Positions 2,889 to 4,120 of a stretch of 64,000 bases of DNA are shown here, piece by piece. Position 1 is the first letter of the stretch, and the number at the start of each line of letters is the position of its first letter. The notes under the pieces were generated by a model. That model was not told the origin of the DNA, searched no databases, and saw only the letters and a program-made list of their open reading frames with translations. Both the position numbers and the translations under genes were made by a program. The DNA is from Halodesulfurarchaeum formicicum (GTDB lineage: Archaea > Halobacteriota > Halobacteria > Halobacteriales > Halobacteriaceae): the NCBI RefSeq assembly GCF_001886955.1, contig NZ_CP016804.1, positions 1,860,001-1,924,000 on the forward strand. Reading direction: 5' to 3'.

Positions 2889-3031
2889 GACGGGAGGTTC
2901 GTAAATTCCGTAACGTATCCAGACCTATGAACCGGGAAGACTGCTTAGCCGATTTCCGCCCAGTTCAGTCGAATTAAACGGCCTTGTCGGGATTCGAAAC
3001 TACACCCGTTCTACAGATAAGCAAGGCGAAT

Positions 3032-3108
3032 GCCTCGGGGTCGTACGGAAATCGAAGATTTCCGTGATGATGAGAATCGGAGATTCTCGAACTACTTGAC
3101 CCCGAGGC
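3032..3108. repeat. three-way-junction palindrome (possible IS200/IS605 right end or structured RNA)
   Basis: An 11-bp perfect outer stem, GCCTCGGGGTC (3032-3042)/GACCCCGAGGC (3098-3108), encloses two perfect hairpins. Arms 3045-3053/3057-3065 (9 bp, loop GAA) form the first and arms 3072-3078/3082-3088 (7 bp, loop GGA) the second. The folded form is a three-way junction in DNA or RNA. The intergenic stretch 2889-3180 contains no gene. Sequences of this style occur near ends of haloarchaeal IS1341-type elements, but no transposase is seen. Confidence 0.7.
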
Positions 3109-3180
3109 GGTTCACATGACTGTCCGTCCGGTCTCAAAAACCGGAGACAAAACGTGTCGGGACGTCGTTCGGCTGGGTAG

Positions 3181-3825
3181 TCACTCCGACTGCAGCGCCT
3201 CGAACCGCGATTCGAGGTCCGCAAGCGTCGAGCGATACTGTTCGATCTGGGTCGCCAGCCGGTCCTCGAACGCGTCGAGCTGCTCGTGCATGTCTTCGGA
3301 GAGCTCCCCGGACTGGCCCTCGATCTCGGCCTGGAGGGATTCGTACTGGTCGACGACCACTTCCAGCGCGTCCAGCGTCCGGGCCTCGAAGTCGTCGTTC
3401 GCATCCAGGATGAGGTCCAGCTGCGCGTCGAGGCTGCTGAGCGCCCCGTCGACCGCCGCCTCGTACTCCTCGATACCGGCTTCGGCGGCTTCATCGGCGG
3501 ACTCGACCATGTCGTCGTGAGCCGCGAGCAGGTCGTCGAAGCCACCCTCGACGGCCTGACGGAGGTCTTCGAGTGCCGCCTCGTCGGTCGGCGTGGTTGC
3601 CTCGATGGCCTCGAGGATGTCCTCGATCGCCCGCTGGCCGACCTCCAGGGTGCGCCGGTGGACGTCCGTGCCCTCGACTGCAGCCGAGCGCATGGCCGCG
3701 GCGAACGCCGCCGGGGCACTCGCCGACTCCTCGGCGAACTGCTGTCCCTGTTCGATCACGTCACGTTGCATCTCGAACATCGCCCCGAAAGGCGAGTCGT
3801 CGGTGGAATCGGTATCCTCAGTCAT
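3181..3825 (-). CDS. phaP: phasin-like PHA granule-associated protein
   Basis: 214 residues, almost wholly amphipathic helix and coiled coil, rich in Ala, Glu and Asp, with the start motif DSPFGAMFEMQRDVIEQGQQF that is typical of haloarchaeal phasins. Phasins coat polyhydroxyalkanoate granules and regulate their size. It overlaps by 8 nt the AbrB-type gene in front of it, matching the phaRP arrangement described for Haloferax mediterranei. No phaE or phaC synthase gene is in the window, so the operon is separated from the synthase or the strain uses it for another hydrophobic surface. The call rests on helix pattern plus gene order. Confidence 0.75.
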   Translation of the reverse strand: MTEDTDSTDDSPFGAMFEMQRDVIEQGQQFAEESASAPAAFAAAMRSAAVEGTDVHRRTLEVGQRAIEDILEAIEATTPTDEAALEDLRQAVEGGFDDLLAAHDDMVESADEAAEAGIEEYEAAVDGALSSLDAQLDLILDANDDFEARTLDALEVVVDQYESLQAEIEGQSGELSEDMHEQLDAFEDRLATQIEQYRSTLADLESRFEALQSE

Positions 3826-4120
3826 TGTCCTGGTTGCGCTTGAGCGGCACGATCACTGCCTGGACGATATCACCCTCGCCGAGGTCGAGGACCTCGCGTT
3901 CGGCGTCGGGAATGCTGATCCGGCCACCACTCTGGATCCGGGTCTTGAACGTCGCCGTCCCCTGGACCGCCTCCAGCGGGAACGACTCGGGCGTGGGAAC
4001 CGCATCGAGCATGGCTTCGGTCATCTGTGCTGAGGTTTCGGTCGCGTCGGAGCCCGCCTGCCCCATCGCCTTCGCGAAGGCCGAGGGAAACATGGCGGAG
4101 TTGGAGTCGTCGTCTGTCAT
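3818..4120 (-). CDS. phaR: AbrB/SpoVT-type regulator PhaR
   Basis: 100 residues. The C-terminal half (about 55-95) is a swapped-hairpin AbrB domain: TFKTRIQSGGRISIPDAEREVLDLGEGDIVQAVIVPL in broken form, with the conserved G-R-I-S-I-P and L-G-E-G-D turns. The N-terminal half is a short amphipathic region (MFPSAFAKAMGQ) like the granule-binding segment of phasins. In Hfx. mediterranei the equivalent protein binds both PHA granules and its own promoter, giving granule-dependent derepression of phaRP. The gene is first in the operon, with a TATA-like CTTATGG about 30 bp before the start. Confidence 0.75.
   Translation of the reverse strand: MTDDDSNSAMFPSAFAKAMGQAGSDATETSAQMTEAMLDAVPTPESFPLEAVQGTATFKTRIQSGGRISIPDAEREVLDLGEGDIVQAVIVPLKRNQDND

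Follow-up and report, generated by a model that had tools for sequence, protein, structure and literature searches.

The locus and its palindrome

The window analyzed here is a stretch of 64,000 nucleotides of the Halodesulfurarchaeum formicicum genome (contig NZ_CP016804.1, positions 1,860,001 to 1,924,000). Between two minus-strand ORFs (1851-2888 and 3181-3825) lies a palindrome at 3032-3108, which a sequence-only reading had described as an 11-bp outer stem enclosing two perfect hairpins; direct reading of the letters confirmed 11 outer pairs and inner hairpins of 9 and 7 pairs, all 27 of them Watson-Crick. The same three-way junction was reproduced by DNA folding (z = -4.25 with flanks). 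Folded as DNA, the segment 3015-3115 yielded z-scores of -5.0 on the plus strand and -5.9 on the minus strand, and 0 of 200 shuffles folded as well as the element in each of these tests. The window holds one convincing copy only. Homologous copies were, however, found in the same genome, in the family and in the order, which indicates that the palindrome is not a product of chance. Farther away, small adjacent ORFs on the minus strand at 1070-1790 match a ParE toxin and a CopG-type ribbon-helix-helix protein, and they likely represent a toxin-antitoxin pair about 1.2 kb from the element.

The relevant unit is 3015-3115, which is longer than the interval described initially (Table 1). Its boundaries were set from homologous 103-bp siblings, in which empty sites fix the ends, and from an alignment with the ends of a complete tnpA/tnpB element. 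Plain GCCTCGGGG/CTTGACCCCGAGGC copies with the same ends served as the reference for the cassette limits; the 9-nt palindrome arm is common to LE, RE and plain copies. By eye, the element ends AGATAAGCAA and GGCGGTTCAC are not complementary, such that there are no terminal inverted repeats, and the element is too short to code a transposase. Nothing was found that indicates a host function for this copy. Its cassette differs from the consensus of 102 analyzed copies by two C-to-T changes, T3071 (C in 95/102), which leaves the eighth pair of hairpin 2 non-Watson-Crick, and T3093 (C in 92/102). These two differences suggest that the window copy may be decaying.

Table 1. Positions in the window of the element, its parts and its immediate surroundings.
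Feature	Position	Strand	Remarks
Target pentamer TCTAC	3010..3014	+	left of the element, read from sequence
Whole element	3015..3115	+	101 bp, terminal-only PATE (palindrome-associated transposable element) carrying a two-hairpin cassette
Left-end (LE) terminal segment of IS200/IS605 element	3015..3031	+	aligns with the LE of L008:3739-5758
Outer stem	3032-3042/3098-3108		11 bp
5' arm of outer stem	3032..3042	+	9-nt arm of the transposon-end palindrome, then TC, which starts the cassette
Inserted two-hairpin cassette	3041..3094	+	54 nt, edge good to about 1 nt
Inner hairpin 1	3045..3065	+	arms 3045-3053/3057-3065, 9 bp, loop GAA
Inner hairpin 2	3072..3088	+	arms 3072-3078/3082-3088, 7 bp, loop GGA
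3' arm of outer stem	3098..3108	+	
Right-end (RE) terminus GGTTCAC	3109..3115	+	common to the RE of the complete element and RE copies after tnpB genes
Flank homologous to sister genome G022	3122..3900	.	BLAST, 95.6% over 779 bp

Relationship to a complete IS200/IS605 transposon

Four other copies and one plain right-end palindrome are present in the same genome. The closest copy is 91-92% identical to the window palindrome and forms the LE of a complete IS200/IS605 element (L008:3739-5758, genome positions 512,739-514,758) with the same termini as the window copy. In this element, an LE with the three-way junction is followed by a minus-strand tnpA (512,866-513,225), a plus-strand tnpB and the RE GCCTCGGGGCTTGACCCCGAGGCGGTTCAC. 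Its tnpA is a Y1 transposase (Y1_Tnp, E = 3.7e-38) and the one match to PF01797 in this genome, and its tnpB carries a Cas12f1-like TNB domain. Hairpin 1 has the same arms in this LE and in the window copy, with loop TTC in the former and GAA in the latter.

Based on these comparisons, the segment 3015-3115 very probably represents the LE and RE of an IS200/IS605 transposon fused at their common palindrome GCCTCGGGG..CCCCGAGGC, with the coding core lost and a second, two-hairpin element lodged in the loop of the palindrome. The junction is probably a composite of these two parts and not one designed structure. The likeness to the IS200/IS605 family (Y1 HUH tnpA plus tnpB) extends to the termini, the subterminal hairpins, the target-site rule and the partner element; the difference is that the window copy has no gene. 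The sequence-only reading had guessed at the right end of a lost TnpB element or a MITE, and both guesses were essentially right: the element appears to consist of the fused ends of a tnpA/tnpB transposon and it belongs to a short mobile family. Of the suggested guide-RNA 3' end, just the last right-end hairpin is left; the omega-RNA part from the tnpB 3' region would be absent, judging by the architecture.

Copies across the family and the order

The sequence-only reading had named the lack of any other copy or covarying homolog as a ground for refutation; copies with covarying arms were found in the same genome and in others. BLAST recovered homologous copies in 13 of 26 genomes of the family, a few of them being chance matches in coding sequence (the low-scoring matches L022, L023, L024, L031 and L032 look like unrelated coding sequence). 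With a covariance model, matches at E-values up to 0.01, weak ones included, were obtained for 169 of the 195 genomes in the order. We chose 100 loci, mostly the strongest, from the family and order matches. These contained 173 matches, of which 102 were analyzed; they are related by descent and not independent, and the covariance model, like the cassette pattern used below, favors paired copies. The matches dropped were opposite-strand matches of the same palindromes, a duplicate (L102:4-88) and matches below 75 bits, a few of which are separate weaker copies. Three further BLAST copies (L021, L029 and L039) lie outside the analyzed set.

On their left, the 102 copies typically carry an LE terminus (TCTAC AGGCGGAGCAGGCCGAGT..) or a tnpB end; on their right, they typically carry LE interior (..GGGTGAAGCC) or an RE terminus (GGCGGTTCAC). 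Classified by pattern, 40 copies are fused LE+RE as in the window, 14 are LE, 43 combine an RE-type right side with another left side and 5 are unclear. Of the 43 RE-type copies, 18 follow an L008-type tnpB that ends no more than 250 bp upstream, versus 0 of the 40 fused copies; for the window copy, no match to this tnpB was found within 1.5 kb on either side. The remaining 25 RE-type copies had no match within 250 bp to this single tnpB query, and all four of the upstream ORFs tested by Pfam among copies without a match were TnpB. In one RE-type copy (L088), tnpA and not tnpB lies 74 bp upstream. Of the 14 LE copies, 3 have a tnpA whose end lies within 250 bp on the downstream side; the other 11 have no tnpA within that distance, one of them with tnpB 71 bp downstream. 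LE copies without a nearby tnpA include loci L122, L128, L129 and L134-L136 of genome G035 and L013, L026 and L033 of genome G023, and several look like parts of longer non-coding PATEs. One sibling fused copy of the window's own genome (L010:4785-4982, near 1,504,784-1,504,892) sits directly 3' of a tRNA-Ser (CGA) gene predicted by ARAGORN.

Mobility and target site

The own-genome copy near 728,034 is absent from the sister genome G022, and the G022 copy at 275,867 is absent from the genome of the window. Both polymorphic siblings are 103 bp long and 79-81% identical to the window copy, which is nearer to the LE of the tnpA/tnpB element (92%) than to these queried siblings. Compared by eye, with slashes marking the junctions, the first site reads ..GCCGTCTAC/AGTTCG.. 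when empty and ..GCCGTCTAC/AGGCGG...GGTTCAC/AACTCG.. when filled, and the second reads ..TCCAC/CCGCC.. when empty and ..TCTAC/element/CCGCC.. when filled. The siblings are therefore placed directly 3' of TCTAC or TCCAC without target duplication. For the window copy, no empty site was readable in G022 because synteny with that genome ends 7 bp from the element's right end, where the BLAST alignment begins; a search of 58 genomes for more relatives of this flank returned G022 itself and one weak match.

TCTAC also borders the window element on its left. The pentamer was found within 26 nt upstream of the palindrome in 35 of 48 fused copies, a close variant in 6 and neither in 7, although this count is partly circular as 40 of the 48 were classed by a pattern that needs [CT][TC]AC[AC]G. 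Four copies at different loci of the two genomes share 92-97% mutual identity in the five pairs compared, cassette included, and this similarity favors movement of the short, cassette-loaded form itself. Alternatively, the sibling polymorphism could have come from excision, or from insertion of a full element and subsequent deletion of its core.

Single-stranded DNA most likely is, or was, the form in which the element moves. The single Y1 transposase of the host would recognize the subterminal hairpin and join the element 3' of TCTAC without duplication, with TnpA presumably acting in trans. The core may have been deleted by recombination between the two end palindromes, and fused copies are what such an event would leave. 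The cassette would have arrived as an insertion of its own that the transposase tolerated, and its inner hairpins would be kept perfect at the DNA level.

Distribution of the cassette and its candidate mover

Loaded copies add TCGTnCG-hairpin-TGATGA-hairpin-AACCA between GGGG and CTTGA, and the length of the insertion ranges from 53 to 66 nt in 192 cassettes, mostly 54-60 nt. A strict cassette pattern (TGATGACGAGA N5-25 TCTCGAACCA) was found in 116 of the 195 genomes of the order, and plain palindromes with a short loop (GCCTCGGGG..TTGACCCCGAGGC) in 86 of them; the backward-pattern control gave 0 among the matches listed in both cases. The 30 plain loci examined include fused copies (e.g., L179, L180 and L181) and copies with a tnpB-end flank (e.g., L192, L196 and L202). 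The same tnpB-end flank is found with the cassette in L092 and without it in L008, L196 and L202. Among 30 strict-pattern loci, 9 are in PATE/IS605 palindromes and 21 are elsewhere (one cut by a contig edge). At least 120 strict-cassette stretches were matched in named genomes, and the titles of the 80 listed all point to haloarchaea; viral contigs gave 0 exact matches to the strict pattern.

Y1 transposases were detected in 70 of the 86 genomes with plain palindromes versus 45 of the 109 without (odds ratio 6.2, p = 1.5e-8, rho = 0.51 across 195 genomes, descent ignored). The corresponding association is weak for the cassette, with Y1 matches in 76 of 116 carriers versus 39 of 79 non-carriers (p = 0.027, rho = 0.18, descent ignored), and no Y1 match was found in 15 genomes, a few of which are incomplete, that contain 3-19 strict cassettes. 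These figures favor a Y1 transposase as the mover of the cassette at most weakly. The available text of one study reports that subclass 1.1 (IS200 type) alone has been seen in Archaea (PMC6006769).

DNA hairpins, RNA fold and other explanations

Covariation alone would have suggested an RNA, which makes the count of G-U versus A-C pairs useful here as a simple test that separates DNA hairpins from RNA folds. Because a G-U pair reads as A-C on the opposite strand, near-equal counts mean no strand preference. In the inner stems of the 102 copies, 1677 of 1722 pairs are Watson-Crick, 16 are G-U and 29 are other, including 14 A-C. Likewise, 174 distinct cassettes have 16 G-U and 12 A-C pairs in their inner stems. 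Watson-Crick counts are inflated, as the covariance model and the cassette patterns select paired copies and the patterns fix some stem bases; a covariance model that scores RNA pairs should, if anything, favor G-U. Of the 348 loops in the 174 cassettes, 320 have a closing 5'C-3'G pair, and 104 loops are GNA, 119 are TNC (GNA on the opposite strand), 5 are CNT and 1 is ANG. Copies with identical arms often have mutually reverse-complement loops, such as those of the window copy and the IS605 LE. GNA loops closed by at least two G-C pairs are described as very stable DNA mini-hairpins in the available text of PMC4686876; many cassette stems have just one G-C pair beside the loop. Overall, the cassette hairpins look to be kept at the DNA level.

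It is highly unlikely that the element is instead a structured non-coding RNA, such as the 3' portion of an omega-RNA, under selection for how the RNA folds. The structured-RNA reading made from the sequence alone was not borne out, as the inner stems show no G-U preference in their errors and no Rfam family was recovered: five loci gave no match at gathering score, and the window stretch gave one chance-level match (E = 4.8). GNA loops are about equally frequent on either DNA strand and the tnpB-side part of an omega-RNA appears to be missing. Some observations do point toward RNA. The right-end hairpins of TnpB elements belong to omega-RNAs, with right-end hairpins in H. salinarum omega-RNAs described in the available text of PMC12558985, and a transcribed 489-bp PATE is on record (PMC10544981, available text). 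Moreover, the outer, host stem has 845 Watson-Crick, 32 G-U, 15 A-C and 26 other pairs out of 918, an excess of G-U over A-C (binomial p = 0.019). Cassettes outside PATEs show a similar but non-significant tendency (14 G-U versus 6 A-C, p = 0.12), whereas those in PATEs lean in the opposite direction (2 versus 6).

The plain and loaded ends could also be related in the reverse order, with a three-way junction native to the IS605 lineage and plain hairpins arising through loss of the inner hairpins. Several lineages do have inner hairpins in their LE and RE, and loaded copies show polymorphism. We nevertheless regard this scenario as very unlikely, because plain palindromes are common and are also found at matching ends, because the cassette occurs at many sites without the palindrome, and because the presence of the cassette and that of plain palindromes are unrelated across genomes (p = 0.88). 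Finally, the palindrome could stand alone, made on the spot by template switching and with no relation to transposons. The perfect arms, and the reverse-complement loops on the same arms, fit template switching as a way in which the arms stay perfect. As an origin this is extremely unlikely and was refuted by the homologs in many genomes, which have fixed termini, lie at transposon ends and have empty-site counterparts. Template switching may nonetheless be the mechanism that keeps the inner arms identical. Fused transposon ends with an inserted cassette remain our preferred reading of the locus.

Comparison with known elements

The element resembles the PATEs described in the available text of PMC3119063 in having no genes, no terminal inverted repeats, a near-terminal palindrome and no target duplication. 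Judged by the match to the LE and RE of the complete element, its palindrome is related to IS605-type ends, and mobility without target duplication is documented through the two sibling copies with empty sites. The same text reports terminal-only PATEs of 52 bp in Haloquadratum walsbyi, fused IS605-type ends formed by core deletion; without its cassette, the element described here measures 47 bp. The length of 101-103 bp is the main difference and results from the cassette that fills the palindrome. According to that text, the small mobile repeats called SMR-A elements (HqIRS42/43/55) are likewise gene-less, sit inside near-terminal PATE/IS605 palindromes and cause no target duplication, and they, like the cassette, have no assigned mover. 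They are, however, about 110 bp long with prominent inverted terminal repeats, whereas the cassette has 53-66 nt, two hairpins and, by eye, a terminal symmetry limited to a short GTTCG..CGAAC. We therefore did not assign the cassette to SMR-A, despite its insertion into a palindrome. SMR-A elements were also proposed to inactivate their hosts (PMC3119063, available text), whereas the cassette-loaded PATEs described here are insertion-polymorphic.

A second likeness is to the CGTC-tagged REP dimers in the available text of PMC3733652 and to the REPINs of PMC3116915. The CGTC dimers have two short opposed hairpins with stems of 8-9 bp and a CCA tail, some of them lie inside palindromes, and they have no dedicated transposase in that account. 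The stems of the cassette are mostly 8-10 bp, and CGAACCA is present in 90 of the 102 model-found copies (the extended cassette pattern fixes this motif). The differences are that CGTC REPs are reported from five bacterial phyla and the cassette is found in haloarchaea, that the cassette has TGATGA at the center between its hairpins with no unpaired CGTC tag at the hairpin heads (no GACG..CGTC), and that its loops are mostly triloops versus 4-5 nt.

The element is best seen as a known kind of mobile remnant with an unusual and probably under-described inner element. Earlier work has described PATEs as well as hairpin repeats that sit in palindromes, but the cassette family, its breadth and its mobile loaded copies appear to be new. 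No prior account of the cassette was found in the literature searched, although an entry may exist in supplementary tables, ISfinder or subscription papers. Tentatively, the cassette could represent an undescribed archaeal REPIN-like class: a DNA parasite made of two hairpins, about 55 nt long and widespread among haloarchaea, which settles in hairpin loops of other transposons and leaves them mobile. The arms of this parasite would vary freely in sequence but remain almost perfectly paired, owing to a process at the DNA level (G-U not tolerated, loops inverted and d(C-GNA-G) apices on either strand), and its mover would be an enzyme other than the known Y1 transposases. The cassette family provides a parallel in Archaea to the REP dimers of bacteria, among which some likewise have no known mover. 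A striking palindrome thereby becomes a testable case of nested gene-less DNA elements. If loaded ends are still moving, this would argue against the published suggestion that hairpin insertions inactivate IS605 elements and would raise the question of how a Y1 transposase reads a three-way junction.

Surroundings of the cassette

Outside PATEs, the outer-stem score was at least 6 in 31 of 137 cassettes versus 8.9% of shuffled flank pairs, with medians equal at 3 and with part of these 137 being PATEs missed by the split. These values lend weak support to a general rule that the cassette sits in a hairpin loop there. Non-PATE cassettes (e.g., L212, L236, L237, L245 and L252) often have recurring flanks, such as ..GAGCGAAG/cassette/CGAGCGAG.. 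or ..CTCGCTG/cassette/CGCGCTTC.., and perhaps belong to a larger mosaic repeat family of haloarchaea. By eye, L037 (around 1501) and L168 seem to have cassette-like hairpin pairs within the tnpB coding sequence or at its 3' end; such insertions may alter TnpB or its guide RNA. Two loci of Halorubrum coriense, L219 and L266, each contain two cassettes 84 bp apart in the same orientation, which suggests local tandem duplication.
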